A stretch of 54,873 nucleotides of DNA from a virus: the IMG/VR virus record IMGVR_UViG_3300031576_000054, positions 1 through 54,873 of that record; one strand, written 5' to 3'. The translations under genes and the position numbers were made by a program. This document shows positions 11,623 through 51,988 of this stretch, in pieces (position 1 is the first letter of the stretch; every line of letters starts with the position of its first letter). Below the pieces are notes generated by a model. That model searched no databases. It saw only the letters and a list, made by a program, of their open reading frames with translations, and had not been told where the DNA came from.

Positions 11623-11711
11623 GCGTCCGCCTCCTCCCGAATCCGAGCGGACTTCTTCCCGGCCCGGCCGCTGCAATCGGGCGCGCAGACGTGGACGGTG
11701 CGCTTCTTCAT
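11619..11711 (-). CDS. Mini-gene, 30 aa
   Basis: This ORF is joined by ATGA at both its start and its end. The product is basic with two cysteines (VHVCAPDCSGRAGKK). An AAGGAA element is upstream. Double coupling makes translation likely despite the size. It could be a zinc-knuckle peptide. Confidence 0.5.
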   Translation of the reverse strand: MKKRTVHVCAPDCSGRAGKKSARIREEADA

Positions 11712-23529: not shown

Positions 23530-25440
23530 CTAGTACATCTCCACCTGAACGTACACATCGGTCGTGCCGGTCGCAATAGCCGAGACCGCCTTGAGGCTGA
23601 TGTCGTCTCCCGGCTCGAGATCCACGGAGAGCGTCTGATTTTCGACGTACGTGTTTGCGTCCGAGAGCGAGACCGTGAGTACAGTATCGACACCGTTCTT
23701 CCGCAGCGTGAACACGTCCGTCTTGCCCGCACCCGGTGCTATCACCGCGCGGACGACGAGTCCCTTGATGACATACGGGCGGTTCACCTTGATCTTCGTT
23801 TCGGCCACGCTTGAAGTCCCAGTACCGGGCCGCATGAACCGCGTCACGCCTCCGAGCAAGGCCCCGTCGTCGCCCCAGAAGAAAACCGACGAGTTCTCGA
23901 CGGCCTTGAACGCGAGTCCGTTCGCCGCCTTGTTCACGAGAACGCACGAGCCGAGTTCGAGCGTCCCGGCGGTCTGCGAGAGGTCGGCGGTCGTTCCGTT
24001 GACTGCCCCGCTGTCCATCGAGAGCAGCGCGCCCGCTTGATTCACTTCGGCACCAATGGCCGTCCCGGTTGTCGCGGCCGTAATCGCGGACAGCATGTTC
24101 ACGTCACGCGTGTGGAAGTTCTGCACGTTCGTATCGACCAGAAGGGCGCGGACCTTCGCGGCCCCGACGCCACGGGCAATGAGAGTCGTTGCCCGAACCG
24201 CGCTCGTCTCCCGGCCGGGAAGCCCCGTGGATTGCGACCGAACCGCGAAAACGTTCTTCGCCACCGCACCAGGCGCGGCACTGGCGTCGGCCGTGACGAC
24301 GGTGCGCCGGAGTTTCGCGGTTGCAGAGGAGGTTCCGGTGTAGAGGATGGTCGTGATATTGACATCCGTGGTCGTCGTGAGTTTCGGGGTCACGTCCTCC
24401 AAGCGCGCCGACGCGGGGAACGTGATGAGAACGGTATCAACCGTGGCACCGAGCATCTGGATCGTCGTGTTGAAGCTCGACAGCCCCTTGAGCGTAACGC
24501 CCGACGGGATCGTGATTCCGGCCGCGAGGTTGTAGGTGTTAGGCAGGAGCAGGGTCGTGTCGCCGGCCAGCGCTGCCGCCAGCGCCGCCGGGATCGTCTT
24601 GAACGGCCTGGACAGCCGCTCGCGTTGGCCGGTTGCATCGTCGCCCCAGGCTCCGTCCACCCAAACGGTATTCCCGGTGATGAGGTCTGCCTCGCCGGTG
24701 ACCTGGGGGCGGAACTGGAAGGCGGTCTGCCCACGGGTCAGGATGACGTTCGTGAAGCACATCCCCAGGCCGCCGAAGCTGCCGTCGATCTCCAGCCGAA
24801 CCCGGACGCTCGTCGTCGTCGGCTGCGTCTCGAACCGAAGCGCGTCGGCATGCAGGCCCGGCGCCCGGTCCCACAGGTTGGCCGGGATGAAGTCGGAATT
24901 GAGCGACAGGACGTGGGTGGTGGCCGCGCCGTCGTTCTCGATGACGCGGACCTGCGCGAAGAGGACGGACCCCGGATTCGACTTGAACCAGAACGCGAGC
25001 GTGTGCATCATCTCTCCGCACACCGCCACGTCCTGGTAGATCCCAGCCGGGTTGTTCGGGAAGAAGCACTGGAGGCAGACCGCACAGTGCGCACAATCGG
25101 GGAGACCGACAGTGTCCTTGGTCAGGGTTGGAATCGAGAAGACGGTCCAGTCCCGTGGCGCGGCCGGCGGCACGAAATCGCAAAAGTCCGAGTTCTTGAG
25201 CAGGTTCTCGCCGGTCTCGGCCAGGAGGCCGGTGTTCAGCCGCCCGAGCGAATCGGCCGTCCTGCGGAAGGTGCTCTTGAGCCGCTCGCCCGCGTTCGTC
25301 ACTTTGGCCTTGAGCGTCTCTAAGCCCTGACGGATCCTCTCCTGCTCCTTCAACCCCAGCGTCCCGCGGAGTTCGAGCAACCGGTCGATCTCGGTCATCC
25401 CTAGGTCGATGGTCGCCAAGTCGTCGTCGGAAGGCGTCAT
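23530..25440 (-). CDS. Tail spike or tail fibre with beta-helix domain (636 aa)
   Basis: An N-terminal helical part (to about 75) is followed by a jelly-roll-like module (about 80-240) and then a right-handed beta-helix region (about 260-560), introduced by FKTIPAALAAALAGDTTLLL and GITIPSGVTLKG, a pattern of pectin-lyase-like tail spikes. The end is another beta module. It would bind or degrade the host surface polysaccharide. The start overlaps the giant gene stop (ATGA). Confidence 0.75.
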   Translation of the reverse strand: MTPSDDDLATIDLGMTEIDRLLELRGTLGLKEQERIRQGLETLKAKVTNAGERLKSTFRRTADSLGRLNTGLLAETGENLLKNSDFCDFVPPAAPRDWTVFSIPTLTKDTVGLPDCAHCAVCLQCFFPNNPAGIYQDVAVCGEMMHTLAFWFKSNPGSVLFAQVRVIENDGAATTHVLSLNSDFIPANLWDRAPGLHADALRFETQPTTTSVRVRLEIDGSFGGLGMCFTNVILTRGQTAFQFRPQVTGEADLITGNTVWVDGAWGDDATGQRERLSRPFKTIPAALAAALAGDTTLLLPNTYNLAAGITIPSGVTLKGLSSFNTTIQMLGATVDTVLITFPASARLEDVTPKLTTTTDVNITTILYTGTSSATAKLRRTVVTADASAAPGAVAKNVFAVRSQSTGLPGRETSAVRATTLIARGVGAAKVRALLVDTNVQNFHTRDVNMLSAITAATTGTAIGAEVNQAGALLSMDSGAVNGTTADLSQTAGTLELGSCVLVNKAANGLAFKAVENSSVFFWGDDGALLGGVTRFMRPGTGTSSVAETKIKVNRPYVIKGLVVRAVIAPGAGKTDVFTLRKNGVDTVLTVSLSDANTYVENQTLSVDLEPGDDISLKAVSAIATGTTDVYVQVEMY

Positions 25441-28400
25441 CTGGCTTGGGCCTCCTCGCGAGCACGCAGCGCCCGGCCGCGTAGCATCTGGATCTTTTCC
25501 TTCGGGATCCGTTCCATCGCCATCGCGCGCGCCATCTCCGGGTTCTCGGCCGCGATCTCGCGGACCGCCTGCCTGCGTAGCGCCATCATTATCTTGCGGA
25601 ACACGAATTTCCGCTCCGGGAGCGACAGCGCGCGGTACTTCTCGCGCCCAATCACGCCCGGCATGACGCGCTCGGCCAACTCCCCGGTCCGTTGGGTCAC
25701 GGCCAAGTCAACGTCCGCGACCCCCACCCTACCGCGGAACTCCTGCTCGGTCAAACCCAAACTCGCGGCCTCGCTTTCGACCGGGTGGATGGTCTCGATC
25801 GCGGCCGCTGGCGGGACGAGCCCTCTGGTAAGCGGCCGCTCGATGGTCCTTGGCTCGGCGCGGAAGGGGCTCGGGAGCGCGGGCAGCGCACGCGCCACGC
25901 CCGGCACGTTGACCATCGCAGGCCCAACCACGCGCCCGGCCCACTCGGGCAGCGCCTCCGGCCCCGTCCGCGCGGCCCTGACCACCGCCTCCTCCTCGAC
26001 CCCGGCACCCGCCAAGAGGAGCCGGATCTGGTTGAAGGGAACCGTGAAGCGCGCGAGGTACTGGCCGATGAACGACGCGACGTAGTCGGCCGCCGTGTCG
26101 GGATTGATGTCGGGCCGCAACATCTCGATCAGGACCAGCGACGTCCCGGCGATCCGGTTGATCGGGAGGACTCCCTGGATCGCGTCGGCCCAACTTATGT
26201 TCCACTCCTGCCGCACCGCGTCCTGGAGTTCGGCCCCATTGGCCCAATGTTTCCCGCTCTTGATCGCGATCCGCAGGAGTTCGGCGAAGAAGAGGTACTG
26301 GGCGAACGGGGCGAATGGTCTCATGTCGATCTGCTTGTCGCCGACCTTGATCTTGTACCACTTGTCGCCGCCCATGTACTCGCGGAGCGCGTACGCACCA
26401 GCGAGGAGGACCGTCCCCGTAAGCGCCTTCGATGTGATCTCGGCGAACCTAGCCTTAGCCTCCGGCGTCGCCTTCCCCACCAGCGCGGCCGCGGGCAAAT
26501 CCCTCCACGACCTCTTGGCCCCCGGCCAGAACAGCGCCAACGCGCCCAGCGGGTTGTGCTCGAGGAGTTTCTGGTATGTCCAGGCGAAGAACCGCGGGAA
26601 CGCATAGATCGTGTCGAGCATCGGAACCGCGCGGTACATCCCGGCGATCACGTTGCCGAGCCTATCGCCTTTCTTGACCAGCGCGGCCGACACGTCCAGC
26701 CCGGCCTCGACTGCCTCGCTGATGTAGGACTCCGGGATGATGGAAGGCGTCCGGTAGGCCTCGCGCACGGCCCCTTGGCCCGTGACCCTCGTGCCCGCCA
26801 CATCAACCCCGCGCTCCGCGATGATCGACCGCAGCATCGCGTCAGCCCCGAAGTTGCGGCTCCAATTCTCTTGCAACCGCGCCGGCGTCGTCACGAGGTT
26901 CATGAACTTCTCGCCCAGGGTTGCGGCGGCCGCAACCGCGCCCGTCCGGCCCGGGTCGCCTACGCCGAGTTGTGCGGCCAAGTAGGGGAAGGTCCTCATC
27001 ACGCGGTCGAACTGCGCGCGTCGGTCGGCCTTCGCGACGTGGCCGATCATCGCGCTCACCATTTCGAGCGCCACGCGATTGCCCTCCGGGCGCCCGCCGA
27101 GCCTTCCTTCGATCGCCCGGTCGAGCGCGATCCAGAGCGCGTTGGCGACCCCGGCCTCCGCGTTGCGGATTTGGGTCGGAACGCCGGCGATCATGAGTCG
27201 GATCGACGCCCGCGAGATCGGGACGTACCCCGGCCACCAGGACCAAGGCTGGATCCGTGCGCCGCCGTACTTGACGTGCTGCCACCAAGTCAACTCAACC
27301 TCGCCGAGTTCCTGGAGAACCCGAAGGGCGTCGCGGTTCGACACGAAGAGGTCGGTGTACTGTCCCGCGTCGAGCTCGCCGAACGCCCGGCCCGAGCCGG
27401 ACCAGTGGCGGCGGACCGGTCCGGGTTGGGTGCCCGAGACCGTCACGCGCGCCGGCTCCTGCGGGAGCGACTCGACCCTCCGGCGCGCACCCCGTTCGTC
27501 CACGACGGCTTCGAGAAGCGTCCGGCCTTCGGCATCCTCTGCCACGATCCGGACCGGTCCGCGCTTCAACACCTCGCGGTTGAGCCAGCGACGGACCTGC
27601 GACAGAACGTTCAAGGTCTGGCCCGCCAGCGTCGCCGACCACTTGAGCGCCCCGCCGGCGGTCAGGGCGTACTTCTGCTTGAGCCAGGTCATGTACTGGT
27701 GGGCGAAGTCCGGCATCGTGGTACCGAACATCTCGATCACCGCCGGTAGGCTCTCGACCGGGACGGTCCCGTCGTCCATCAACTCGGCCATCTGGCGGTT
27801 GATCCGCTCCTTACCGCGCGCCGCCTCGGTGCCGGCGAGCAGGTCCGCGGCCTCCTCGGCCGAACGCGCCATGAAAGCGTCGCGTACATCCTTCACCCGC
27901 TCAACCTTGAGCGTCTTGGTCCAGACGCCGGGAGCGGGCTCGCCAGGAGGGCCTGCGGGCGACGGCGTGGGCGGACCAGCCGGAGGCGCCGGGGGCTTCG
28001 CGGGCGGCGGCGTGGGCGGCGGGACTGCCCCAGCCGGGGGGCGCACGGGCGGGGCCGGAGCAGGTTCCGCGGCCGGTGGCCGAAGCACCGGCGGTGCGGC
28101 GGGCGGAGCTGCCTCCGGAGGCCGCGGGGCGCGCGCTTCGGTCAGCGGGACGAAATCGTCGGTCAACGGCCCCGCTTCCGTCAGGTCGGCGTAGAGCTTC
28201 GACATGTCCTCCGGCTTGGCTTCCTCGGGAACCGGCGGGGTCGGTGCGGCCTTCGGCTTGGCTTTCCGGAGCGTCCCGCCCTGGACGACCACAACCTGAC
28301 CTGGCCCCAGGTCCGCGCCGGTGCCGTCCGGTCCGACGACCCGAATGAACCCAGGCGCGATCCCCTTCTCGGCGCGCCACTTCTCTTCGCCGATCATCCA

Positions 28401-31400
28401 GGTGTCGCCCGGCGACAGCTTCTCGGACTCCAGGTTGATCCACTCGGGCTCCTCGGCCGCCGCTCGAATTGCTTCGGCAGCGGTCACTGGGGGCCTCTCC
28501 GGCGGAACCCTCGGTGCCTTCTCACCGAACGCCGCGGCTTGGCTCTGCGTGGCCGGCGGGGGCGGAGTGCCTTCCGGCGGTTCCGCTCCAGGAGGACCCG
28601 GGGCGGCGGGCGGCGCCGGTGGCCTCGGCGGCTTGATCGGAGGCGCTCCAGCGACCGGCGGGGCAGGCGCTTCCGGCGGTCTGGCTGGTGCGGGTACCGC
28701 TGGGACTTCTGGCGGTCTGGGTTCCGGTACCAGCGCTGCTGCTCGGATCGCCTCCGCTGCGGTGCGGGGGGGCGGGCGCGCGGCCTCCGGGGCTGTCGGC
28801 GGGCGGCCTGCCTCGGCCGGGACGCGCTCGCCCGGTTTCAACTTGGCGGCGATTTCCAACGCCTCCTCGATGTCCTTCCCCATCGCTTCAAGGATCTCTT
28901 CGGGCACGTCCAACACGGAGACGTCGCCCGACACGACCGCCTTGAGCGTCTTCATCTTCGTGCCGAGGATCGAGGCGTTGACCCTGTCGATGTTCGTGTC
29001 GCCGAACAGCCAGTAGATTCTGGGGTTCGATTTCGTGGTGAGACGCCAGATGCGCCCGGCTGCCTGGACCGCCGGAACAGCCGAAAACGGGGCGGTCACG
29101 ACGATCATGGTCCGCGGCGCGTTGCCCACGCGGTCGTCCAGGTTGATCCCGGTCCCGCCGGATTCAATGGTGGCGATCAGCACCTTGGCACGCCCGCTCT
29201 GGAACCGCTCCATCGCCTCGCCTCCGGTCATGTCGGCGCCGCCGTGCATCTCGGCGATGTCGCGCACACCGCGTTCCTCGAGTGCGGCCTTGAGCGAAGC
29301 CGCCGTGCCCTCGCTGGCGTGGATGATCTCCCGGAAGCGTTCTCCACCTGGTCCCCTGCGCCAGACCCCAACCTCGCTCATGTTGACGCGTTGGATGAAC
29401 AGCACGACCTGGCGACCCTCGCCCAGTTCGGCCTCCGCGATCCGCACGGACTCGGCGATCTTGTAGGGCTCCTGCTGTAGCCTCTGGTGGATCCGCACCA
29501 TCCGCTTCGGCAGACCAGCCTGCTCGATCAGCGCCATCGTCCGGTGCGCCTCGGCCGGCAACGGGATCGTCCGGAACCGCACGTCGACCCCGTCCATGCC
29601 GATCTCGCGCTTGATCGTCTGGCCCGCGGCGGTCAGCCGCTCGAACACCCCGCTGAGCCGACGGTACGCCTCCTCGGCGCCGATGTGAGGCGCGATCACC
29701 CAGCGCTGCTGCGTGCTGCCGGGGATCCGCTGAAGCCGCAGGCCCATTTTCCGGTACGCTTCCTGGGCCGACATGCCTTCCAAGATCCCGGTGCGCGCCA
29801 GGTACTCGATGTGGTAGGGCTTGTCATACGGCGTCGCGCTGGCGAAGAGGACGGACTTAGCCCTTTCGACCGCACCCATAATGACCGCGCCCTGGCGGGT
29901 GGCGTCGAGGTTCTTGGCGGCGTGCGATTCGTCCAGGATCAGGACGGTCTCGGGCGTGATCGCCTGCGCAACCTGATGGATCTGGCTGTAGTTCGTGACG
30001 TGGATTCGGCCGGGCGTGAGGACCGGGTCCCGCGGACGATTCGGGCCGAGCCAACTCGTGATCTCAACGCCCATCGCGGCGGCGTCGTCGCGGAAGGATC
30101 CGCGAATCACGCCGTCTGGTGCCTTGAGGACCTCGGCCTTCGTGACGATCAGGACGGGCGCGCCGCGGTCTGCGTACGTCTGCGCGACCGCGAGCTCCTG
30201 GCGCGTTTTTCCAACGCCGGTTCCGTCAGAAAGAAGGAATCCGCCGTCGGGCTTGGGGCGATCCATGGCGGCTAACGCCTTGGCAACGCCCTGTTGCTGC
30301 GCGTCGGTCAGGTGTTGAGAAACGCGCGGAGCAATCCCAGAGGCATCGACTCGAGCGGTAAGGTTCGGTCGGACCGTGAGGACGGTTCCAATCCCTGCCG
30401 GACCAGGAAGGCGTCCAGCGCCTCGGCCGCCAACTCCTCCTGCGACATCGCGAACTCCGGCAACTCCGGGTTCTGCGGAGGGTTCGGCTCCAGCGGGGAC
30501 GGTTCGGGCGGGTTGTCGTTTCGCATCGGCGACCTCCTTGACGGTGGGGCCCTCCGCTGCCCGCAGTGTAACCGGTTCGGGCTCCGGTTTCAAGGGCGGT
30601 GCTTCGGCGGCAGCGCGAATCGCCTCGGCTGCGGTCTTTGGCCGTCGGACCGTCACCGGCTTCCAGTCCGCCTCAGCGATTCCACGCAGTACGTCGAGCA
30701 TCTCGTCAACATCGCCGGTCGGCGTGAGCGACGGCCGTTCCATGCCGCCCGCCCCCCTCGGCGGTCCGAGGCGGGCGGCCGCCTCGTCGATCACGACGCC
30801 GTCGATCGACCTCATGAAGTGTGGAACCGACATGAATTCCTCAAGGCCACGGATCGCCCGCACCTTCCCGGCCTCGTCCCTGATGACGAAGTTGAGCAGC
30901 TTGTTGCCTGGAGCGTCCACGAAGTAGGCCGCAAGCCCCTTCGCGATGGTGCTGACATCGCCTCCTTTCGTCCGGATCAGGCGGTTCGCTGCGATGACTT
31001 GTCCCGGTGTCAGACCCGGCCGCACCCCCTCGGGGCGGATGCGGTTCGTCTCCAGGAGCCGCAGGACCAATTCGGCATGCTCTTGTCGTCCGACAGCCGC
31101 CTCTTCCTCGAACGGAGCCCGCTCCCGCGCGTCGTCCAGCGAGAGCTCACCCGACGGTCTCCGGCTGCCCTCATCCATCGGGATCTGGTCGCCCGATTGG
31201 ACCAACCGATCGGTCTCCGGCCCGACGATCCGCAGCTTCGCGGGGTTCTTCGTCGGCTCGACCTCGTACTTCTGACCGCTGATCGTGAACTCGTCGCCGG
31301 GCGCAAGGTCGCCGCCGCGGACGTTGACAAACCGCAGGGCAGGCGGCAGCTCCGGCTCTCTCGGAGGTGTCGGTACGGGCGGTTCCGGGATCCGTTCGGT

Positions 31401-32894
31401 CGGTGGCGGGACCGTTTCGCGTGGCGGGGTAGGCTCGAACATCTTCGTCCGCGCGGCTTCGGCAAGTCGTTTCCCCTGTTCCCAGAATTCCCTATCCGCA
31501 ATCCGCTCTTGGGTGGGTGCCTCTTTTACTTGTTCGAGGAGTGTCTTAGGAATCTCTTTTGACCATCTGACAACGGGATGGCCAGCCTGCTGCCAGAACG
31601 TAAACCGCCCCCATGCTGGTGCTTCGACCCGATACTGACCAGGAGCCCACTCCCGGACAAACGGATCTCCACGTTCCGCAGCATCTCGCAGCCATTCCAG
31701 GGCTTTGCTGAAAATAGTGCGATGGTCCGGTCTGGAGCCGATCAAGGTCTCTTGATCACCAACGATATCAGCGAGATCGGACAGGGGCTTCGGCATCTTG
31801 GGGCCGATTACTTCGATGGTCGGGGCGGGCGCAAAGCCGGGCAGCCCGCCGGGCCTCTCCGCCCCGGCGGGAGCAGGGCGAGGAGGCACCTCCGCTCCCA
31901 CCGGGGGCCGCTCGGGGACAGGGGCCGCAACGGGAGCTTCCGGCACCGCAGGTCGCTCGGGCAGTTCGATGCCCCCCCGTTCCCCCGCGGCGACCGCGGG
32001 CGGACCCGCGCGTCGAAACCCGGGACGGCGGGCCTCTGCCATCGTGGTCATCGCGTCGGCGGCCACGCGGCCGACCGTTTGGATTCCGCCCTTGACTCCG
32101 TCGGCGAGGCGATTCAGCCGGTCGAGCGAGGTCTGGTAGCGCGCGATCTGGCCTTCGATCTTGGCCGCCTGCGCGACGTTCCCGAGTCCACGCGCCTTCG
32201 TCGCCGTTTCGCTAAGCGTCCTGACGATCTTCGACAGGTCGCCGCGCGCGCCCAAAGCAAGCGTGGGATCGGTGAACGTGCTCCAGAGCCCGACCCCGAT
32301 CCCTTCCGCGAGCGCGTCCAGCTCCTCCTCGGGAGTCTCCGGCTGGAATTTCCGCAATCCCTCCTTGATCGCGTCACGGAACCCTAGTTCCTTGACGACG
32401 TGCCTGGCCACGTCCTCGCTGGGCATGTGGGGTACGGCGGCCGGATCAAGCGTTCGTTGGACGAGCCCCAGCCCCTCCTTGCCGAGTTTGCGCCAGAACT
32501 GCGTTTCCTGGCCCTGCAGCGCCTTGCCGATCTCGCCCCCCACGATCGACAGCGCACCCTGGGCGGCGGCGAAGGGTGTTCCGAAGCCGACCATCGCTTG
32601 GCCCAGAACACCGCGGGCACCCGGACGCGCGTATGGGCGCGTCACGGCCTCGAACGTCGGGGCTCTCTCAAAAAGTGCCGCCGTCGTGATCGGGAGTTCC
32701 GGGCCCTTCGGACCGAGGAGACGGCGAAACCACTGGAGCGTCGGGTGGCGTCTCTCGAGGGCTTCGGCTGTGATCTCCTGCGTGCCAGCTGGCAGGCCTC
32801 GCCACTCCATTTCGCCACCGACCGGCGGAGTGGTCGGGGCCAAGGGCGCGGCCCCCTGCTGCTGGAGGCGGAACGCCCGCAGGAACCGGCTCAT
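25437..32894 (-). CDS. Giant virion-type polyvalent protein with an SF2 helicase core (2485 aa)
   Basis: This single frame of 7.4 kb is the largest gene. A soluble N-terminal region leads to disordered Pro/Ala-rich linkers. The helicase core has Walker A DGTGVGKT (about 890-897), a DESH box (about 987), IATIESGGTGINL (about 1240) and QAAGRIWRL (about 1280), typical of superfamily 2. Two similar beta modules (APGDEFTI near 530 and SPGDTWMI near 1485) flank the linkers, in which TAAEAIRAAA occurs three times (about 757, 1380, 1475). The C-terminal 800 residues are helical, with a hydrophobic segment (about 2160). The layout resembles DarB-like antirestriction and polyvalent proteins packaged in the virion and ejected with the DNA. 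A helicase role in the host cell is inferred. Confidence 0.75.
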   Translation of the reverse strand: MSRFLRAFRLQQQGAAPLAPTTPPVGGEMEWRGLPAGTQEITAEALERRHPTLQWFRRLLGPKGPELPITTAALFERAPTFEAVTRPYARPGARGVLGQAMVGFGTPFAAAQGALSIVGGEIGKALQGQETQFWRKLGKEGLGLVQRTLDPAAVPHMPSEDVARHVVKELGFRDAIKEGLRKFQPETPEEELDALAEGIGVGLWSTFTDPTLALGARGDLSKIVRTLSETATKARGLGNVAQAAKIEGQIARYQTSLDRLNRLADGVKGGIQTVGRVAADAMTTMAEARRPGFRRAGPPAVAAGERGGIELPERPAVPEAPVAAPVPERPPVGAEVPPRPAPAGAERPGGLPGFAPAPTIEVIGPKMPKPLSDLADIVGDQETLIGSRPDHRTIFSKALEWLRDAAERGDPFVREWAPGQYRVEAPAWGRFTFWQQAGHPVVRWSKEIPKTLLEQVKEAPTQERIADREFWEQGKRLAEAARTKMFEPTPPRETVPPPTERIPEPPVPTPPREPELPPALRFVNVRGGDLAPGDEFTISGQKYEVEPTKNPAKLRIVGPETDRLVQSGDQIPMDEGSRRPSGELSLDDARERAPFEEEAAVGRQEHAELVLRLLETNRIRPEGVRPGLTPGQVIAANRLIRTKGGDVSTIAKGLAAYFVDAPGNKLLNFVIRDEAGKVRAIRGLEEFMSVPHFMRSIDGVVIDEAAARLGPPRGAGGMERPSLTPTGDVDEMLDVLRGIAEADWKPVTVRRPKTAAEAIRAAAEAPPLKPEPEPVTLRAAEGPTVKEVADAKRQPARTVPAGAEPSAEPGVAGVRDVAGGVGGRGAGRLPGPAGIGTVLTVRPNLTARVDASGIAPRVSQHLTDAQQQGVAKALAAMDRPKPDGGFLLSDGTGVGKTRQELAVAQTYADRGAPVLIVTKAEVLKAPDGVIRGSFRDDAAAMGVEITSWLGPNRPRDPVLTPGRIHVTNYSQIHQVAQAITPETVLILDESHAAKNLDATRQGAVIMGAVERAKSVLFASATPYDKPYHIEYLARTGILEGMSAQEAYRKMGLRLQRIPGSTQQRWVIAPHIGAEEAYRRLSGVFERLTAAGQTIKREIGMDGVDVRFRTIPLPAEAHRTMALIEQAGLPKRMVRIHQRLQQEPYKIAESVRIAEAELGEGRQVVLFIQRVNMSEVGVWRRGPGGERFREIIHASEGTAASLKAALEERGVRDIAEMHGGADMTGGEAMERFQSGRAKVLIATIESGGTGINLDDRVGNAPRTMIVVTAPFSAVPAVQAAGRIWRLTTKSNPRIYWLFGDTNIDRVNASILGTKMKTLKAVVSGDVSVLDVPEEILEAMGKDIEEALEIAAKLKPGERVPAEAGRPPTAPEAARPPPRTAAEAIRAAALVPEPRPPEVPAVPAPARPPEAPAPPVAGAPPIKPPRPPAPPAAPGPPGAEPPEGTPPPPATQSQAAAFGEKAPRVPPERPPVTAAEAIRAAAEEPEWINLESEKLSPGDTWMIGEEKWRAEKGIAPGFIRVVGPDGTGADLGPGQVVVVQGGTLRKAKPKAAPTPPVPEEAKPEDMSKLYADLTEAGPLTDDFVPLTEARAPRPPEAAPPAAPPVLRPPAAEPAPAPPVRPPAGAVPPPTPPPAKPPAPPAGPPTPSPAGPPGEPAPGVWTKTLKVERVKDVRDAFMARSAEEAADLLAGTEAARGKERINRQMAELMDDGTVPVESLPAVIEMFGTTMPDFAHQYMTWLKQKYALTAGGALKWSATLAGQTLNVLSQVRRWLNREVLKRGPVRIVAEDAEGRTLLEAVVDERGARRRVESLPQEPARVTVSGTQPGPVRRHWSGSGRAFGELDAGQYTDLFVSNRDALRVLQELGEVELTWWQHVKYGGARIQPWSWWPGYVPISRASIRLMIAGVPTQIRNAEAGVANALWIALDRAIEGRLGGRPEGNRVALEMVSAMIGHVAKADRRAQFDRVMRTFPYLAAQLGVGDPGRTGAVAAAATLGEKFMNLVTTPARLQENWSRNFGADAMLRSIIAERGVDVAGTRVTGQGAVREAYRTPSIIPESYISEAVEAGLDVSAALVKKGDRLGNVIAGMYRAVPMLDTIYAFPRFFAWTYQKLLEHNPLGALALFWPGAKRSWRDLPAAALVGKATPEAKARFAEITSKALTGTVLLAGAYALREYMGGDKWYKIKVGDKQIDMRPFAPFAQYLFFAELLRIAIKSGKHWANGAELQDAVRQEWNISWADAIQGVLPINRIAGTSLVLIEMLRPDINPDTAADYVASFIGQYLARFTVPFNQIRLLLAGAGVEEEAVVRAARTGPEALPEWAGRVVGPAMVNVPGVARALPALPSPFRAEPRTIERPLTRGLVPPAAAIETIHPVESEAASLGLTEQEFRGRVGVADVDLAVTQRTGELAERVMPGVIGREKYRALSLPERKFVFRKIMMALRRQAVREIAAENPEMARAMAMERIPKEKIQMLRGRALRAREEAQAR

Positions 32895-35470
32895 CGAATA
32901 CCTCCGCCGGCAACCGCCTCCTGGAGCGCTTCGAGTTCCGTCTTTCGTTGGACGGGGTCGGCGCGAAGAGCGGCTTCCTCTTGGTCGGTCAGACCCTCTT
33001 CGTCGCCAATCGCATCGAGCAGCGCCCTCATCGTCGCGATGTCGGTGTCGGCGTCAACGTCGGCTCCTTGGGGTGTTGCCGGAGGGGACGGGGCCGCAGA
33101 CGGGGTTGGCGTTGGACGCGGCGCTGTCGGCGGTGCAGCTCTCGGTCCCGCAGCCTCCGCCGGGCCGATCCCGGCCATCTCGCGGATCAACTGGATGTCC
33201 TGGCTGGGCAATAGCCGGTAGCGGCGCCAGCCCTCGACGATCTGCTCCTCCTCGGGAGTCTGGGGACCTCCCCTGCCCTCGATCGCTGCGGCCTGCTCTT
33301 TGAGTTTGCGCGCCGGACGCACCCGCCCGGAAATCGTGGCCCGCACTTCCTGCTCGGTTCGGCCCGACTTTTCGGCGATCTCCTCGACGATGTCGTCGCC
33401 CGTCGCGCTGGCGCCGTTCTCGTACGCCTGGACCGCAATCTTCTCCATGTCGGCAAGTGCCCTGCTGCGGACAACCTCATCACGCGCAGCGGCCAAGTCT
33501 TGCGACAGCTTGAGCCGCGCCTGCGCGATCCCCTGCATGACGTTCGCCCGTTCGGTTCGCTCGCCTGCGGCCTTCACCTTGGCTTCGCGCTCGGCCTTGC
33601 CCCTTGTCGCCATCGCCATCACCCAGTCGCTCCACTGTTGACGCTGCGCCGGGTCCGTGTACCCCGCGTCGTCAAGCAGCTTGTCGAGTGCCTCGGGTTT
33701 GATCTGCTCCGGGTCGAGTCGCGGAAGCTGTTCGAGGTCCCGCTGGGCGGTCCGCTGGACTCTCCCGGCCTCGACGCGCGCTCCCGTCGCAGCCGCACGC
33801 GCGGCCGTATCCTCGCGCGCCAAGCGCGCACGCGCGGCCGTAGCCTCGATTCCAAACTCCTGCCGTTTCTTCGCGCCGACCAACGTCCTGCCCTGCATCA
33901 CGAGCTGCTTGACGATCGCAAGGCCCTCGCGCCGAGTCTTCGGATTCGTTGACCGGAGCATCTGGTTGACCTCCTTGGTCAACTGCGTCTCGGGATCGAC
34001 GATCCCCATGACCGCGTGGAGCGCCGTGATCGCCTGCTTCCTGCCGGCGGTCGCACCGCGCACCAAGGCGGCAAACTCGCCAGTCCGCATCCCCAACTGC
34101 TTCTGGGCGTTCGGGTCGAACGCGAGGTACTGAAGCCGCGGATCGCCCGATTCGAGCGCGATCTTCCGCACGTCCGCTTCGGCCGCCTGGGCGCGTTCGC
34201 CGATCGGTCGCGGCAGCTTCGCACCCTCAGCAGCACCCATCCGGTAGCCCGTCGCGGCCGACGGAACCGGCGACGGCATTTCTTTCATCATGGCCGCCGC
34301 GTTCCGATCAGCCTCCTCCTGCCGCATCCGCGCCTCGATCGCCAAGAGGGAGGGCCGGGCCTCTGGCTCAACGCGAGGAGGTTCAGCCGGAACCGCGGGC
34401 ACGCCGGCAGGGGCGGCGGGCCGAGCAACACCTTCCGGTTCGTTCTCGACCGCAGAAACACCTGGCGCACCCCTCTTCATTTTGAGTTGGAATTCCCTTT
34501 CGACAAACTCGGCACGCGACTGCTGGTCGGCATCCGGGAATGCCGTGTCAAACCGTCGTTCGATGTCGCCGAGCGCCTCCTCTTCGGTCGGGGCGACCGG
34601 CCTAGGGGGCAACGGTTCGTACTGTCCCGGCGGTTCTGGTTCCGGTTGAAGCGTTAGCGGCTCGCCGAGCGCCTCGCGGGCCTTGCGGGTCCGCTGTTCC
34701 AAGTCGGCATCGGCAACGGCCTTGCCCCATTTGGCGACGGCAAATTGGTATCGTTCGTCGCCGACCCGCGGGCGACCGGCGGGCGACTCCGGCGACACAC
34801 GAGCGGGCAGCACGGCCGACGGCTCGGCCGGGGCCTCGCGCAGCTCTTCCTCTGGCCTCATCTGAACCGCACCGGCCTCTCGGCTTTTTCGTTGACGATG
34901 AGCCAGATCGGCCTCGGCAATTTTCTGGTCCCACTGCCTTTCCACCCTCTGGTACCGCATGTCGCCGCGCTCCGGCATCGCGGATGGCAAAGCTGGTACC
35001 GGAGGGGGTGGCGGTGCGAGCCGGGCCTCGCGCGGTTTCGTCTCCGGTTCGGTCGTCTCCAGCTCGGAGCGCAACTGGTCCAGTTCTCTTCGCATCGGAT
35101 TGAGAATTGCGTCCGACTTCCTGGCCTCCGCGATGCTCGTGCTCGGCGGGTAGACCTTCAACCTGATTTCCAGATCGCTGATCCGGTTTGTTAAGGCGAC
35201 GCGCCGATTCAGGGCATCTTCTTCCTCCGGGGACAAATCGAACTTCAAGCGTGGACCTTCGACCGGAACGCCAAACATCCTGGACTTCTCTTCCCACGCC
35301 CGCTTTTCCGCAGCTCTATCGGGAGGCGGGGGAGCCGGAAACCTGGTGTCGACCTCCGGCGGAGCCGCGAGAGTCTCGTCGTCCCGGCCGAGAACCGCGC
35401 GCGCGAACTTGGCGTACGGACGACGCGCGCGACGCCCGGCAATGCTGGCAAAGTCGATGAAGTGCGGCAT
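32891..35470 (-). CDS. Internal virion protein, Pro/Glu-rich and coiled coil (859 aa)
   Basis: The real start is the ATG at 35470, after AGGAAA; a longer frame to 36436 has poor coding character. The product has Pro-rich linkers, then long coiled-coil helices (about 480-720) and an acidic C-terminus. Two similar units of about 75 residues (RYQRVERQWDQKIAEADL near 165 and RYQFAVAKWGKAVADADL near 240) point to an internal duplication. It is probably a packaged ejection protein. It is coupled to the giant gene by ATGA. Confidence 0.7.
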   Translation of the reverse strand: MPHFIDFASIAGRRARRPYAKFARAVLGRDDETLAAPPEVDTRFPAPPPPDRAAEKRAWEEKSRMFGVPVEGPRLKFDLSPEEEDALNRRVALTNRISDLEIRLKVYPPSTSIAEARKSDAILNPMRRELDQLRSELETTEPETKPREARLAPPPPPVPALPSAMPERGDMRYQRVERQWDQKIAEADLAHRQRKSREAGAVQMRPEEELREAPAEPSAVLPARVSPESPAGRPRVGDERYQFAVAKWGKAVADADLEQRTRKAREALGEPLTLQPEPEPPGQYEPLPPRPVAPTEEEALGDIERRFDTAFPDADQQSRAEFVEREFQLKMKRGAPGVSAVENEPEGVARPAAPAGVPAVPAEPPRVEPEARPSLLAIEARMRQEEADRNAAAMMKEMPSPVPSAATGYRMGAAEGAKLPRPIGERAQAAEADVRKIALESGDPRLQYLAFDPNAQKQLGMRTGEFAALVRGATAGRKQAITALHAVMGIVDPETQLTKEVNQMLRSTNPKTRREGLAIVKQLVMQGRTLVGAKKRQEFGIEATAARARLAREDTAARAAATGARVEAGRVQRTAQRDLEQLPRLDPEQIKPEALDKLLDDAGYTDPAQRQQWSDWVMAMATRGKAEREAKVKAAGERTERANVMQGIAQARLKLSQDLAAARDEVVRSRALADMEKIAVQAYENGASATGDDIVEEIAEKSGRTEQEVRATISGRVRPARKLKEQAAAIEGRGGPQTPEEEQIVEGWRRYRLLPSQDIQLIREMAGIGPAEAAGPRAAPPTAPRPTPTPSAAPSPPATPQGADVDADTDIATMRALLDAIGDEEGLTDQEEAALRADPVQRKTELEALQEAVAGGGIR

Positions 35471-37149: not shown

Positions 37150-38703
37150 TTACCCCTCCGTCAAAGACGGGCTGTCGTCCTGGGCGTACAGGAGCGCGCG
37201 TCTCAAAACCATCGCCTTCTTGTTGACGGCGCGGAACCGCATCCGCCAGTAGTTCGCTCGGCGCGGATCGCCGTCGCGCACGACGTTGGCCGGATAGTCT
37301 ACCACGCCGTTCCGGTCCACCACAACATCGCCCCCGTAGTCGCCCCACCTGGGGCCGGTCGCTTCCAAAGTGATCGCTCCGGCCGGGATCTCCCGCCAAT
37401 CCACGTCGGTGTCCGGGTCGGCGTCGTTTGGCCCCAAGCTGACCGTGATGGTTCCGCCAGCCGACACGTCGCACATGATCCTGGCGCGCAGCGCCGCGTA
37501 GTCGCCGAACGCCTCCTGAAACGCAAGCGCGGCCGTGATGATGTCGTTATCGACGTCGGCTCCCTCGTCGTCGAAGACGGTCGTGTCGTACTTGACGACG
37601 AAGGCGCGCAGAGCATCGCCGAACAGGATCTGGCCGGTCAGGAAATACTTCACGAACAGGTTCACGTTCCAGCCGGTGAAGATCGTGACCGGCAGCCAGG
37701 GCTTCCGCAGGTGGAACACGTACACCCGGTTGGGCGTCGTCTGGCCGGTGCCGAACGGAACCGCCACCCACAGCCGATCGTCGTCGATGACCGAAGCGCA
37801 TTTGTCGATCGCCGCCTTGTTGACCGACTTCCAGTCGGGCTCGATCAAGCGCGACAGGTACTTCGGGGTCTGGCCCTCGAGCGCGTAGATCCCATCCTTG
37901 GCGACGTAGTAGATCGTCCCGCCCGCCGACCCCTTGTCGTCGAGCACGATCGAGTACGGCGCGATCGCACCGTGGTACCGCGTCCCTACCTTCCGCGTCA
38001 CCAAGTTGACCCCGGGCGGGTCGGGGTTGTTTCCAAAGATGAGGAAAACACCGCCCTCGGTGAACGCGACCAAGTAGTCCTCTAGCGACACCAGGCCGGT
38101 CGGGATCCCGTCGGCCGGCTGGACGAACGGCAGGAAGTTCGACAGATCCCAGGTCTCGCCGTCGTCCCGGTTCGAAAGAAACATACCGTACAGCGTCGGT
38201 CCGAACGCCCACAGCCGCCGCTTGTGCCACGCGAGGTATCGGAGGCTCGTCGGCGCGCCCGGCACCGCGATCGTGGCGGCCGCTACCCCGTCCCACTTCC
38301 GCATGGCCTGGCCGTTGGTCGCCATGTAGATGAAGTTCGTCCCGCCCTTGAGTGCCTCGGCGAATCCGTAGCGCGCGCCCACCAGGAGCCCACCGGTCAG
38401 GACGGTCTCGACCCCGCCGGTCAGGTTCGAGATCGTGGCCCCGTGCGTCACCACCAACTTGTCGGTGAACATCCCCTGCGACCAGTAGAGCGACTGCGGC
38501 GCCGCCCCGGTCGATAGCGCGACCGCGTTGTATTTCGAGGTTCCGAACCGCTTGACCGCATCCGAGTTTTCGATCGTGCAGTTGAGCGCACGGGTCATGG
38601 CATTCGGCGGCAGGCGCTCGGACTTGAGCCGCGACACGTACCCCATGTCGAAGCCGTCGATCCGCGCGATCGGATGGCCCGTATCGGCCGAACGGACGCC
38701 CAT
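37150..38703 (-). CDS. P22 gp10-like packaged-DNA stabilisation / tail protein (517 aa)
   Basis: The product has the repeated beta strands of a propeller-like phage tail protein (WHKRRLWAFGPTLYGMFLSNRDDGETWDLS; GGVFLIFGN; IYALEGQTPKYLS), as seen in P22 gp10-type head-completion proteins. It would bind at the portal exit and seal the packaged DNA. The start overlaps the upstream TAA (TAATG), and GGGAGG precedes it. Confidence 0.7.
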   Translation of the reverse strand: MGVRSADTGHPIARIDGFDMGYVSRLKSERLPPNAMTRALNCTIENSDAVKRFGTSKYNAVALSTGAAPQSLYWSQGMFTDKLVVTHGATISNLTGGVETVLTGGLLVGARYGFAEALKGGTNFIYMATNGQAMRKWDGVAAATIAVPGAPTSLRYLAWHKRRLWAFGPTLYGMFLSNRDDGETWDLSNFLPFVQPADGIPTGLVSLEDYLVAFTEGGVFLIFGNNPDPPGVNLVTRKVGTRYHGAIAPYSIVLDDKGSAGGTIYYVAKDGIYALEGQTPKYLSRLIEPDWKSVNKAAIDKCASVIDDDRLWVAVPFGTGQTTPNRVYVFHLRKPWLPVTIFTGWNVNLFVKYFLTGQILFGDALRAFVVKYDTTVFDDEGADVDNDIITAALAFQEAFGDYAALRARIMCDVSAGGTITVSLGPNDADPDTDVDWREIPAGAITLEATGPRWGDYGGDVVVDRNGVVDYPANVVRDGDPRRANYWRMRFRAVNKKAMVLRRALLYAQDDSPSLTEG

Positions 38704-39821
38704 TACCAGCCTCCCAGCCCGCTCCACATCATTTGGTCACCCGCATCGACCTCGCGGACTTGGTGGCCTTCGGTCAGGACGTAGCGGCGCACCGCTTCCT
38801 TCTGGACCTTGAGCCGTTCGGCCTGGTGCTTCTGCTCGTAGACCTGCATCATCCGCGCGTTCCCGTACCGCCCGTACGCGCGCGTCATCGCGAAGTAGAG
38901 GACAGCCGTCGCGTCGCCATAGTTGAGCGGCACCGGGTCGGTCGCGATGTAGAACGCGGCCGCTGCCGTCTCTTCCCGGTACTGCTGGTCCAGCGTTACC
39001 TCTCCGTCGCCGACCACCGACTTGATCCGGTAGAACCGGCTCGGCTCGGCGCTAAACTGCTTTCCCTTCCCGATCCACTGGCCGGGTCGGAGCTTTTTGG
39101 TCCACAGGTTCGTGACCGGTCCCGTCACGGTCGGCGAGTTCTGGGTGAACGTCGCGGTCCCCGTCGTCTCCCTGACGAGAAGGACCGGATCGGGCAGGCC
39201 GACGTACCAGACCCGCACCGCCCCGTCGGTGATGACGAACGCCGATCCGGCCGCCGTGTCCTCGTCCCAGGTACCTTCCATCGTGAGCGACGTCGCCGAC
39301 TCGACCGACAGCACCCGGCGGTAGCGCGTCGGGTCGGAGGTCCGTCCGATCGCGAATCCGGCCGCGATCCCGGCGGCAACCAGGTCGGCCCCGCCGGCGA
39401 ACGTCACGACGGCCAAACCGCGCGTGAACGTCGCGGTGCCGGTCGAGTATTCCACGACCGTCGGCCGTTGCCAGAGCCCGAACCGGCTGGCGTCGAAGAA
39501 GTAGGCGACCGGGAGCGACGTGGTCGGGAGCACGAGGCTGTAGCCGGTGAATTTCGTGTCGATCAGCCGGAGCTCGCGGTCGCGGTACCAGACCATCTGG
39601 AGCTTGTCGAGGTAGCCGGGGATGATGTCAGGCAGGTCGTAGAGTTGCTGGTTCGACTTGGCCGGAAAGATCCACTCGCGCCGGAAGCACATCGACTCGC
39701 GGGCGAGTTCGGCGGCCTCTTCGTTGATCCACGACAGGATCTCGGAGTCGTGGATGAGGGCGGCGGACTTCTCCTTGGCGACTCCGCGTACCTCGCGGAC
39801 CATTTCGTACAGCGTTCGCAC
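38703..39821 (-). CDS. Phage adaptor / head-tail connector, GTG start (372 aa)
   Basis: The N-terminal 75 residues are helical (SEILSWINEEAAELARE; MCFRREWIF) like phage adaptor proteins that bind the portal, and the C-terminus continues that helical fold (YGDATAVLYFAMTRAYG). Between them are two similar beta modules, beginning TGTATFTRGLAVVT (about 125) and TGTATFTQNSPTVTG (about 220). The GTG follows GAGGA. It is placed between the portal and stabilisation proteins by function. Confidence 0.68.
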   Translation of the reverse strand: MRTLYEMVREVRGVAKEKSAALIHDSEILSWINEEAAELARESMCFRREWIFPAKSNQQLYDLPDIIPGYLDKLQMVWYRDRELRLIDTKFTGYSLVLPTTSLPVAYFFDASRFGLWQRPTVVEYSTGTATFTRGLAVVTFAGGADLVAAGIAAGFAIGRTSDPTRYRRVLSVESATSLTMEGTWDEDTAAGSAFVITDGAVRVWYVGLPDPVLLVRETTGTATFTQNSPTVTGPVTNLWTKKLRPGQWIGKGKQFSAEPSRFYRIKSVVGDGEVTLDQQYREETAAAAFYIATDPVPLNYGDATAVLYFAMTRAYGRYGNARMMQVYEQKHQAERLKVQKEAVRRYVLTEGHQVREVDAGDQMMWSGLGGW

Positions 39822-43564: not shown

Positions 43565-44539
43565 CTACGCGTCCGGGTCCAAACCCTTGATAACCAGTTG
43601 CCGGTCGCGGCGCGAGGTCGCGATGTTGCCGGAGAACAGGATCCGCCACGTCTTGGCCCACATTTCTGGCATCTGGATCGGACCTTCGACCGAGAAGTTG
43701 AGGTCCGGGTGGATGAACATGTCGAGGTAGTCGGTCTGGAGCAGGTACAGGTTGGCCGACGCGTCGGACACCGGGCAGTACGTGTCGGCGTAGATCGGCA
43801 CGCCTTGGTAGACGAGGCTGGTGAAGCCAGCCTTGCGCGTCTCGTCGTCCGAATCGGTGACGTACCGTTCCTGGGGCTGGAGCAGGCTGTGGAACTTGGC
43901 CCAGAGCAGCGGCCGGGTGATACCCAGGTTGGACTTGTCGGTTCCGCCGTCCCACGTCCGCGCCCACTGCTTGGTGAAAAGGGCCAGCGTGAAGCTCGCG
44001 ACCGTCACGGTCTTGGCGGCCCAGACGGTCGTGCCGGTCGGCCCGATCACGTCGGCCGCGGTCAGCTTCCCGTACGGGTCGTTGTCGGTCACGGCCCGGA
44101 GGCCGATCAGATCCTTGGCGCCGTCGGCGGCCGATGAATAGACGGCGGTCCCAACCAGGTCCCACATCGTGTCCATCGCGTTCTGTTTCCGGACCGCGAT
44201 GAATTCCTTGATGGCGTCCTCGCCCGTGACCTTCGCGGCGTCCGTCCCGTAGCACGGGATCGGGCACACGCCGAACTTGTAGTCGTACTGGGCGGACGTG
44301 ACCGCAGGATTCTGCGGGTTGGGCAGCGGGTCGTCCTTCGTGAACCACTTGGCGCCGCCCTGGGAGGTGTAGAACAGCGGGTACTTGACGCCGTCGGTGT
44401 AGCGCCGCATGATCGGGGCCTTGCGGCCCTCCTTCATCAGTTTGATCGCCAGAACCGACTTGTTCTTCCAGTTGGTCTGTACTTTGGGGACGATCGACGT
44501 CTTGATGATTGCGGTGACGTCGTCAAACGTCAGGGCCAT
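43565..44539 (-). CDS. Major capsid protein (324 aa)
   Basis: The product starts with MALTFDDVTAIIKTSIVPKV and ends with IATSRRDRQLVIKGLDPDA, a form seen in HK97-fold capsid proteins of podoviruses, with a central region (DPLPNPQNPAVTSAQYDYKFG) typical of the E-loop and P-domain. It follows the scaffold gene, as usual. The ATG follows GGAGGAAC. The 43496-43564 gap has a GC-rich hairpin near 43520-43545. Confidence 0.85.
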   Translation of the reverse strand: MALTFDDVTAIIKTSIVPKVQTNWKNKSVLAIKLMKEGRKAPIMRRYTDGVKYPLFYTSQGGAKWFTKDDPLPNPQNPAVTSAQYDYKFGVCPIPCYGTDAAKVTGEDAIKEFIAVRKQNAMDTMWDLVGTAVYSSAADGAKDLIGLRAVTDNDPYGKLTAADVIGPTGTTVWAAKTVTVASFTLALFTKQWARTWDGGTDKSNLGITRPLLWAKFHSLLQPQERYVTDSDDETRKAGFTSLVYQGVPIYADTYCPVSDASANLYLLQTDYLDMFIHPDLNFSVEGPIQMPEMWAKTWRILFSGNIATSRRDRQLVIKGLDPDA

Positions 44540-45833: not shown

Positions 45834-47783
45834 CTACACCGCATTCTGGACGAACGCCGGAGGCGCTTGGGTCGGCACACCCGACCCCATCTCCGACCCG
45901 ACCGGTACCTCCGGTTCGGCCCCGGCCTCGGGGATCGCCGGCACGCCCGCGGCGGCCGGAAGCTGCGGCGCCTGACCCCCCTGTTTCATCGCCGCCATCT
46001 GCTGCTGTTGCGCCATCGCTTCCCGCCTCATGCGCTCGAATTCGGCCATCATCCGCACCTTCTCCTGTTCCGGGACGTCCAGGAGCTTCCAAACGTACTG
46101 GCGATCGACCGCCCCGATCTTGAACAACTCGATCGCCTCGACCAGCATCGCGCGCCGGGACAGCGGGCGACCCGACACGCCGTTGACGCGAACGACGTAC
46201 TCGCCGATCGACACGTCGTTGAGCATGATCGGCTGCGGCTTGTCGCCCGGGAACTTCGGCGGAATCACGTCGAGCACGCGATTGACGACGAACGCGGTTA
46301 CCTCTTCGTTCCGGCCCAGCACGAGGCCCTTGGGGTCCAACGATGCCAGACGTTCGGGCGGCGGTGGTCCCACCAAAGGCAGGGTCTTCTCCTCGGTCCA
46401 GAACTGCTGGATGTCCGACACGATCTGCTCGCCCAACCGCTTCATCGCGACCTCGAGGTTCCGGGCCTTCTGGCGCACCCGCGTCTGGGCGGCCTCGCGC
46501 ATCTGGGCCACCAAGACGCCCGACGCGCCCTTGAACGGCAACGCGCCCTCGGGCGCATCGCCCTGCCCGGTCAGCGCGCGGATGTGGCCCTCGTTCATCG
46601 ACAAGAGCGAGAACATGACCGGGCTGATTGGGATCGGCGGCATCCAGTACGGCTTTCCGCCTCGCTCGTCGTACGGCAACGCGAGCCCCGGTTTCACCAT
46701 CCAACTCGTCGAATCGAAGCCGGACAGCGCACCGAAGAGGAGCGGCGGCATCATACCGACCCGGATGCAGTCGAGGATCATGCCGTGCGTCAGGTTGTGG
46801 GTCGTGTTCGGGCCCTTGATGTCGTGGATCTCGGGCCGGCCCCAGAACTCGCTGTCCCAGTCAAAGTTGTTGAACTTGACCAGCGGGATCCGACCGTTCC
46901 GCCGGCGGATTGGACGGTCGGCCAGAACCACGTCGCCCGACAGCGTGATGTGACGCCACGTCGGGTACCGGTCGCGGTTGGGGTCGCGCATGTAGAACTG
47001 CCAGACGCTCGCGCCCTGGGCAAATTTCGTGTCGCCCGATCCGCTCTCCGGCGTCAGCGTGTAGAACTGCATCGGGTTTTTGCCCGCGAGGTCGTACATC
47101 GTCGCCGCGTTGCGGAGAAAGTGCCCGCCCGGCACCGACTCGCGCGGTCGGCGTTCGCCATCGTAAATCGGCTCGGTCAGGACGGCCTCGGCTTTTACCC
47201 GCGGGCCCTGGCGCGGGTAGAGTTGGCGGATCCGGTAGAGCGGCAGCCACGATCTCACCAGCACGAACTCGCACTGTTCGACGTCGATCCCGCCCAGCAC
47301 CATCACGTCGTACGTGTCGCGCTGGCGGACGATGATCCGCTTCCGGAAGGGATCGTAGTCGGTCTCGAAGAAACCGGTCCCGAGGATTGCGGCTGAAAGG
47401 AGCACCTGGGGCAAGAGCAACTCGAAGTCTTGGTCGCGCAGAACCCATTCCATCGACTCGTGGAGCGCGGCGGCCGTGTGATAGTTGGACGGATCGAGCG
47501 CCATAACCTCAGGTCGCGGCCGATTGTCGGTGAGGAGCGCGATCGACGGGATGATGGCGGAGGCGCAGAAGTTCGTGGTCGGGGCCGATTTCCACAGCGG
47601 GCGGTTCCAGGGCCAGTGGTTGCCCTGGAAATACCGTCCGTTCTCCCACCAGACATGATCGAACCGCCGTCGCTCGGCGCGCGCGTGGTCCTTGATCTCG
47701 CGGAACAACCCGACGGCCCGTTCCTCGGCCGCCTTGTTCGATCCGACGGGCGCCGTCACGTCGATTTCGGCAATCGCCTCCAC
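45834..47783 (-). CDS. Portal protein, GTG start (649 aa)
   Basis: The product has the portal pattern: a helical N-terminus (FREIKDHARAERRRFDHVWWENGRYFQG), then NFCASAIIPSIALLTDNRP, a stem-like helical middle and a long C-terminal helix (AMAQQQQMAAMKQGGQ) with a disordered end. It forms the dodecamer through which DNA is packaged. The GTG follows GAGGAG. Confidence 0.87.
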   Translation of the reverse strand: MEAIAEIDVTAPVGSNKAAEERAVGLFREIKDHARAERRRFDHVWWENGRYFQGNHWPWNRPLWKSAPTTNFCASAIIPSIALLTDNRPRPEVMALDPSNYHTAAALHESMEWVLRDQDFELLLPQVLLSAAILGTGFFETDYDPFRKRIIVRQRDTYDVMVLGGIDVEQCEFVLVRSWLPLYRIRQLYPRQGPRVKAEAVLTEPIYDGERRPRESVPGGHFLRNAATMYDLAGKNPMQFYTLTPESGSGDTKFAQGASVWQFYMRDPNRDRYPTWRHITLSGDVVLADRPIRRRNGRIPLVKFNNFDWDSEFWGRPEIHDIKGPNTTHNLTHGMILDCIRVGMMPPLLFGALSGFDSTSWMVKPGLALPYDERGGKPYWMPPIPISPVMFSLLSMNEGHIRALTGQGDAPEGALPFKGASGVLVAQMREAAQTRVRQKARNLEVAMKRLGEQIVSDIQQFWTEEKTLPLVGPPPPERLASLDPKGLVLGRNEEVTAFVVNRVLDVIPPKFPGDKPQPIMLNDVSIGEYVVRVNGVSGRPLSRRAMLVEAIELFKIGAVDRQYVWKLLDVPEQEKVRMMAEFERMRREAMAQQQQMAAMKQGGQAPQLPAAAGVPAIPEAGAEPEVPVGSEMGSGVPTQAPPAFVQNAV

Positions 47784-51297: not shown

Positions 51298-51988
51298 CAG
51301 GCGCATCCAGCAGGGGCGGCCGTTTGCCCGCGGTCGCAAGCCAGTTGTCGAAGCCCTGATCGAACGCCTTGGTGACCTCGCTCGCGGGCACCACGACTTT
51401 CAGGACCTGCGCGCGCGTGTCGATCTTCTTGACGGCGTCGCCCATCAGGTCGGTCAGGAGTTTGATCGCGTCCTGGCGGATCCCGTGGACGTTCGTGTTC
51501 TCAATCTGCCACAGGCAAATCTGGATCCGCCAGTCCTTTGACCCGGCGACGAATCCGCGCGCAGGCAGGCCGCGGACGTAGTCGCGGAGCCTTTTCTGGT
51601 ACGACCGCTCCTTCTCGTAACGGGCCGGGTCCTGGATCTTGAGTCCGAGCCACCGGCGCGCCGTCCAGTATCCGTACTTTTGTGAGCACTCGTCGAGAAA
51701 TTGCCGGAGCGTCTGGCCGTTCTGGTCCGTGAACTCATCCAGACGGCCATCGGAAATCACCTTGTCGGTGAGTTCGCTGGTCGCCGCCTGACCGTCCGGG
51801 CCCCTGGTGTCGCTGTAGATCATGCTGTCGGTCTGGCCCATGCAGGGCTCGCCGGCTTGGTCGGCCAGGATGCGCGACGCGACCGCTTCGTAACGAGACT
51901 TCGCGGTTCCGGGCGGATTGGGCGGACGGGCGACCGATTCACCGACGGGCGGGCTGTCGGTCGGTTCGAGGCTGACGTCGGAACTCAA
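51287..51988 (-). CDS. Probable terminase small subunit, TTG start (233 aa)
   Basis: A TTG start with AAGGAG upstream. The product has a disordered N-terminus (about 40 residues), then a helical part (ELTDKVISDGRLDEFTDQNGQ; QFLDECSQKYGYWTARRWLGL) and another helix set (IKLLTDLMGDAVKKIDTRAQVLKVVVP). Position and helical content suit a terminase small subunit that recognises the packaging site. Not certain. Confidence 0.6.
   Translation of the reverse strand: MSSDVSLEPTDSPPVGESVARPPNPPGTAKSRYEAVASRILADQAGEPCMGQTDSMIYSDTRGPDGQAATSELTDKVISDGRLDEFTDQNGQTLRQFLDECSQKYGYWTARRWLGLKIQDPARYEKERSYQKRLRDYVRGLPARGFVAGSKDWRIQICLWQIENTNVHGIRQDAIKLLTDLMGDAVKKIDTRAQVLKVVVPASEVTKAFDQGFDNWLATAGKRPPLLDAPDGS

Follow-up and report, generated by a model that had tools for sequence, protein, structure and literature searches.

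Phage polyvalent proteins were described in 2017, with Strawberry-notch-like ATPases found "in a few instances" and with fusions of InPase and portal already known (PMC5512222). A winged helix-turn-helix (wHTH) is said to mark out the Strawberry-notch enzymes (PMC5512222). DarB of phage P1 is a head protein co-ejected with the DNA (PMC9024508, PMC12810830), and JC1 gp69, a Bcep22-like DarB homologous to BcepIL02 gp70, is present in virions, being represented by 51 unique peptides in mass spectrometry and listed second in the proteomics table (PMC9144972). Also, the virion RNA polymerase of phage N4, a protein of ~3500 aa, is ejected, and a beads-on-a-string architecture has been proposed for it (PMC12633501).

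Here, we analyzed IMGVR_UViG_3300031576_000054, the record of a bacterial virus from a metagenome, over its whole stretch of 54,873 nt (the window; all coordinates refer to it). The feature under study is a giant ORF, P0001 (Table 1), for which a sequence-only reading had proposed a single unbroken frame of 2485 residues within the late structural genes. The frame proved to be real: it lies on the minus strand, with stops in the plus-strand translation. Its codon-position GC content of 0.71/0.53/0.81 is the coding pattern of the other genes of the virus, and the chance of a frame of this length was estimated from base composition at ~1e-23; an artefactual ORF is ruled out by composition and conservation. 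Because ATGA overlaps connect P0001 with both the upstream and the downstream gene and a GGAGG is located just before its start, it is probably translationally coupled inside a minus-strand block. This late block leads from terminase, portal and major capsid protein via a weakly head-closure/internal-virion-like protein to P0001, followed by a weakly beta-helix-like protein and a laminin-G lectin. The late structural position thus held, all three marker genes being on the same strand, and P0001 is encoded with portal and terminase genes as polyvalent proteins are. The proposed flanks fared less well, as the downstream tail spike is a weak beta-helix match and the upstream internal virion protein one weak PHROG match (E 5e-4).

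Table 1. Features of P0001 and of its surroundings in the window (residue numbers refer to P0001)
Feature	Position	Strand	Support or remark
Integrase	4017-4964	+	phrog_216, phrog_1
Stand-alone N6/N4 DNA methyltransferase	9546-10814	-	PF01555, 2.9e-40
HNH endonuclease with resolvase-type HTH	20505-21128	-	
Laminin-G-like lectin protein	22389-23126	-	
Downstream coupled gene, 636 aa, beta-helix (spike/fibre-like; weak)	23530..25440	-	DUF1565, E 0.013
Giant ORF P0001, 2485 aa	25437..32894	-	open frame; ATGA overlaps at both ends; SD-like GGAGG upstream
C-terminal orphan region, residues 1674-2485	25440..27875	-	weak LPD38-like signature, not significant
Pro-rich linker, residues 1527-1673	27876..28316	-	
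Small beta module copy 2, residues ~1484-1525	28320..28445	-	
Pro/Ala-rich linker after helicase, residues 1345-1490	28425..28862	-	TAAEAIRAAA repeats 2 and 3 (residues 1378, 1471)
SWI2/SNF2-type (Strawberry-notch-like) SF2 ATPase module, residues ~838-1345	28860..30383	-	Pfam, PHROG, AF2, Foldseek, 22-row alignment
Motif VI QAAGRIWRL with arginine finger, residues 1277-1285	29040..29066	-	Q, GR and last R invariant
Motif V IATIESGGTGINL, residues 1240-1252	29139..29177	-	
Motif III SATP, residues 1019-1022	29829..29840	-	
Walker B DESH, residues 988-991	29922..29933	-	D and E invariant in 22 rows
Walker A DGTGVGKT, residues 890-897	30204..30227	-	
Pro/Ala-rich linker before helicase, residues 743-796	30507..30668	-	TAAEAIRAAAE repeat 1 (residue 754)
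Small beta module copy 1, residues ~520-562	31209..31337	-	identity to copy 2
N-terminal orphan region, residues 1-288	32031..32894	-	
Upstream coupled gene, 859 aa from ATG at 35470, long linker-rich protein	32891..35470	-	
Head-closure/internal virion-like protein (weak)	37150..38727	-	phrog_511, 4.8e-4; phrog_578, 0.048
Major capsid protein	43565..44539	-	phrog_9953, 1e-20
Portal protein	45834..47783	-	phrog_156, 8.8e-33
Terminase large subunit	49672..51339	-	phrog_38, 6.3e-53

As judged from sequence profiles and a structural model, the ATPase module is genuinely SF2: it belongs to the SWI2/SNF2 clade and has two RecA-like lobes with motifs I-VI. In Pfam it matched AAA_34 (E 4.7e-10; 33.9 and 39.3 bits, above the cut-off of 27) and Helicase_C_4 (E 4.6e-7; 28.2-30.3 bits, just below the cut-off of 30.5), and among the PHROGs the DNA helicase family phrog_62 (2.9e-31). 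In the PDB, a profile built from 22 relatives matched SsoRad54 (E 1.5e-17) as well as numerous chromatin remodellers. The AlphaFold2 model of the module reached a pLDDT of 88.4 and a pTM of 0.87, and its Foldseek matches were CSB, Mot1, CHD4, INO80, ZorD and RapA, which at 12-16% identity reflect the common SWI2/SNF2 fold. In the alignment of the 22 relatives, which were picked by Walker A, the catalytic positions of the motifs are invariant or nearly so. The complete helicase core of the sequence-only reading is thereby confirmed by Pfam, the SsoRad54 match, AF2 and Foldseek alike.

By its sequence the core is Strawberry-notch-like: the Strawberry-notch helicases (SBNO; AAA_34 plus Helicase_C_4) are its best Pfam match and have a similar Walker A and C-terminal motif context. 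P0001 differs from them in the C-terminal part, and the wHTH appears to be missing, because the Helicase_C_4 match ends at position 154 of 271, where a Pro-rich linker begins. Strawberry-notch proper was rejected as its identity, since this wHTH region is missing and the full Helicase_C_4 cut-off is not reached (30.3 vs 30.5 bits). In the scanned relatives the Helicase_C_4 matches likewise end between about 152 and 172.

Relatives of the whole protein were not found in phage records, viral contigs or bacterial genome contigs, and among 50,697 phage records P0001 had no match at E 1e-5. The helicase alone gave only weak matches to SNF2-type helicases in these records (~23-29% identity); the helicase of one relative gave two weak matches there and that of another none. 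The rare 8-mers that seeded the whole-protein searches did not cover the conserved motifs, and a Walker A DNA pattern was used afterwards. Scanning the viral contigs for DGTGVGKT yielded 46 loci, nearly all inside giant ORFs, and about 40 of them align with P0001, the best with 47% identity over 519 aa. All of these alignments are confined to residues ~837-1357, i.e. the helicase module, and the giants read more fully (about 1211-5557 aa) have only this module in common with P0001. Bacterial genome contigs supplied nine more module loci. Their ORFs measure 1206-4975 aa, two being truncated where the contig ends, and the metagenome assemblies concerned were attributed to Verrucomicrobiota, Elusimicrobia, Calditrichota, Planctomycetota, Bacteroidetes and others. 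We rejected the view of P0001 as a generic SNF2 replication helicase, since nearly all relatives are giants and not enzymes of 500-700 aa. Records related to the virus by portal, capsid or terminase are distant, and the 22 portal-related ones held no match to P0001; also, searching the viral contigs with the C-termini of two relatives gave no useful new relatives.

The domains fused to the module vary. According to Pfam, a single 1742-aa ORF of IMGVR_UViG_2786546467_000001 (6422-11650, minus strand) combines a Mu-type portal, InPase and the helicase module; this record also holds an open ORF of >3600 aa. Other relatives combine InPase, helicase and RadC or helicase and LPD38, and two larger giants combine helicase, PBECR5, ART-PolyVal and LPD38 (5557 aa) or DarA_C, helicase and ART-PolyVal (4094 aa). 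Such partners belong to the repertoire of phage-type polyvalent proteins. Between P0001 and the giants with these partner domains the module is 36-48% identical, and a methyltransferase was not found in the relatives scanned with Pfam. Structural genes near the giants of relatives comprise phrog_3287 in two records and the portal phrog_156 in one. Because otherwise unrelated giants align through the helicase only and carry such varied fused domains, the module behaves, as far as these sequences indicate, as a mobile cassette moving among giant virion-linked polyvalent proteins. Since portal and DarA_C are virion-linked, these two fusions give the best indirect support for packaging of the module.

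Outside the ATPase, P0001 is largely orphan sequence; one catalytic domain and the duplicated beta modules are all that was recognized. An orphan N-terminal region is followed by a Pro/Ala linker, a mixed region with the first beta module, and the linker preceding the ATPase; behind the ATPase a linker, the second beta module and a further linker lead to the orphan C-terminus. The two small beta modules announced by the sequence-only reading exist and proved to be one module in duplicate (33% identity over 39 aa, pairwise E 1e-8), and the linkers it named are proline-rich stretches amounting to ~600 residues. TAAEAIRAAA occurs three times, each time in linkers bordering modules, and was not seen in the relatives checked; a docking helix or a processing site is a possible role. 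Residues 1-288 had no significant Pfam match, no relative match and no PHROG match. The long helical C-terminus of that reading is no more than plausible, as the single-sequence AF2 model of this part had a pLDDT of 38 and was uninformative. Near residues 2155-2205 it contains a weak, non-significant LPD38-like signature, WYKIKVGDKQIDMRPFAPFAQ. LPD38 was not detected by Pfam, by sequence search of genomes, by two home-made profiles (one with 16 members) or by shuffles; the best match of two independent C-terminal profiles, likewise non-significant, fell on the same segment KIKVGDKQIDM. As the similarity is local and non-significant, LPD38 was rejected as unproven for the C-terminus. Stx-converting phages are further carriers of an LPD38-type C-terminus.

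Compared with the phage polyvalent proteins (PMC5512222), P0001 is likewise a giant of the late module with a SWI2/SNF2 ATPase, and its module recurs, at 36-47% identity, in giants with LPD38, ART-PolyVal, PBECR5, InPase, RadC and DarA_C, so that it shares a module with established polyvalent proteins. It differs in having one recognized catalytic domain, orphan termini and no known LPD, including LPD38, a phage-type polyvalent domain which is not obligatory. P0001 most likely works like a polyvalent protein. With P1 DarB and the Bcep22-like DarB proteins (BcepIL02 gp70, JC1 gp69) it has in common the giant size and an SF2 ATPase, and with the podophage members a similar late slot. The DarB-type proteins were found in virions where tested; DarB carries an adenine methyltransferase before the helicase, whereas neither a Pfam methyltransferase nor an [NDS]PP[YFWH] motif was found in P0001. 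BcepIL02 gp70, composed of SLT, Eco57I, helicase, LPD3 and LPD38, has three further domains (SLT, LPD3, LPD38) absent from P0001. For lack of the methyltransferase domain and motif, P0001 was rejected as a DarB, and "DarB-like" does not stand as a homology claim. Giants of 2502-4667 aa occupy a comparable gene slot in BcepIL02, Ruegeria 45A6, ctsTn925 and Vibrio K248, each directly preceded by a protein of ~400-530 aa. The N4 virion RNA polymerase resembles P0001 as a giant ejected enzyme with domains on flexible linkers; it is another enzyme without sequence relation to P0001.

On balance we favor P0001 as a phage-type polyvalent-like ejection protein, which would be packaged, co-ejected, translocate on the incoming DNA and protect it. 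Its synthesis would be late, alongside that of the particle proteins; after packaging into the head it would pass through the short tail as a chain of domains on Pro/Ala-rich linkers, and the linker-separated modules would fit such N4-like threading. Delivered with the DNA and refolded in the cell, its SWI2/SNF2-type ATPase would then translocate on the incoming double-stranded DNA and in the first minutes of infection displace or block host proteins on it, restriction enzymes first. Packaging and ejection are quite likely, because P0001 lies in a late operon with ATGA overlaps, its relatives carry virion or injected domains, and giants in a comparable slot are virion proteins. The packaging and injection proposed earlier thus stand as the best reading, by way of the portal and polyvalent fusions of relatives and of JC1 gp69 (PMC9144972), although P0001 has no second recognized polyvalent domain, no LPD38, no methyltransferase and no known capsid-targeting signal. 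Moreover, the upstream proteins are called virion proteins by position only, and the orphan parts might serve another role. For anti-restriction in particular, the least certain step, we put the chance somewhat below even.

These readings overlap in part, so that their probabilities need not sum to one. A packaged and ejected P0001 might instead remodel nucleoprotein for early expression or replication, clearing RNA polymerase or host DNA-binding proteins in the manner of RapA or CSB; polymerase- and nucleosome-remodelling ATPases are indeed the top Foldseek matches, but a common fold at 12-16% identity says little on the substrate, and we consider this role unlikely. We judge it very unlikely that the ejected ATPase serves DNA entry, taking hold of the leading end and pulling the genome into the cytoplasm. 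SWI2/SNF2 enzymes are translocases, and the gene sits in the slot of the last ejection-type protein or giant of other podophages; however, nothing specific in the data on P0001 indicates entry, so that the DNA-pulling motor of the sequence-only reading found no specific support. Furthermore, the slot contains no such giant in phages whose capsid protein is related and whose genes are similarly ordered, and relatives join the module to conflict-type domains (ART, RNase, DarA_C), not to channel proteins. That P0001 is not packaged at all, but acts late in the cell in packaging, recombination or replication and stands in the structural operon by chance, seems quite unlikely: the window contains separate recombination genes (exonuclease VIII-like and Sak4-like), yet P0001 is tightly coupled to late genes, one relative joins the module to a Mu-type portal, and the giant in the comparable slot of JC1 is a virion protein (PMC9144972). 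Finally, the mostly orphan sequence would accord with a structural giant whose helicase has degenerated and lost its activity, but this is scarcely credible, as every SF2 motif is intact and conservation extends over 22 diverse proteins at 25-48% identity.

The sequence-only reading had regarded the domain combination as undescribed. Its kind was described in 2017 (PMC5512222); what appears to be new against the 50,697 phage records is a coherent module subfamily without wHTH or fused methyltransferase in many giants of uncultivated viruses, including one module fused to portal and InPase and the orphan-flanked P0001. Tentatively, and with considerable doubt, the subfamily may represent virion-delivered DNA translocases, in which a stand-alone cassette in giant ejection proteins or portals protects or remodels DNA without a methyltransferase; anti-defence would then be mechanical rather than chemical, or the module would even be an entry motor. 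If P0001 is packaged, an ATP-driven double-stranded DNA translocase would sit on the genome just as it enters the cell. In DarB, which protects DNA, methylase and ATPase are joined, whereas a natural family whose proteins contain the ATPase module but no methylase takes the two apart, so that one can ask if translocation by itself is protective; the fusion of portal, InPase and helicase offers a compact system for this question.

Regarding the virus itself, an imperfect direct repeat of ~270 bp (1-270 and 54604-54873), with identical flanks and a shifted middle, occurs at both ends of the window; because of it, the record may be terminally redundant or circular, ~54.6 kb in size and nearly complete. 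Given the integrase gene, the virus is probably temperate, and with its stand-alone methyltransferase it may methylate its own DNA separately from P0001. The exonuclease VIII-like and Sak4-like genes are likewise separate from P0001. A homologue of the laminin-G lectin (29% identity) is encoded just downstream of the helicase-bearing giant in one relative record (G026), the lectin gene being a neighbour common to two otherwise unrelated giants. The HNH endonuclease has ~36% identity to HNH proteins of Myxococcus phage Mx9, and the capsid proteins are only ~24% identical.
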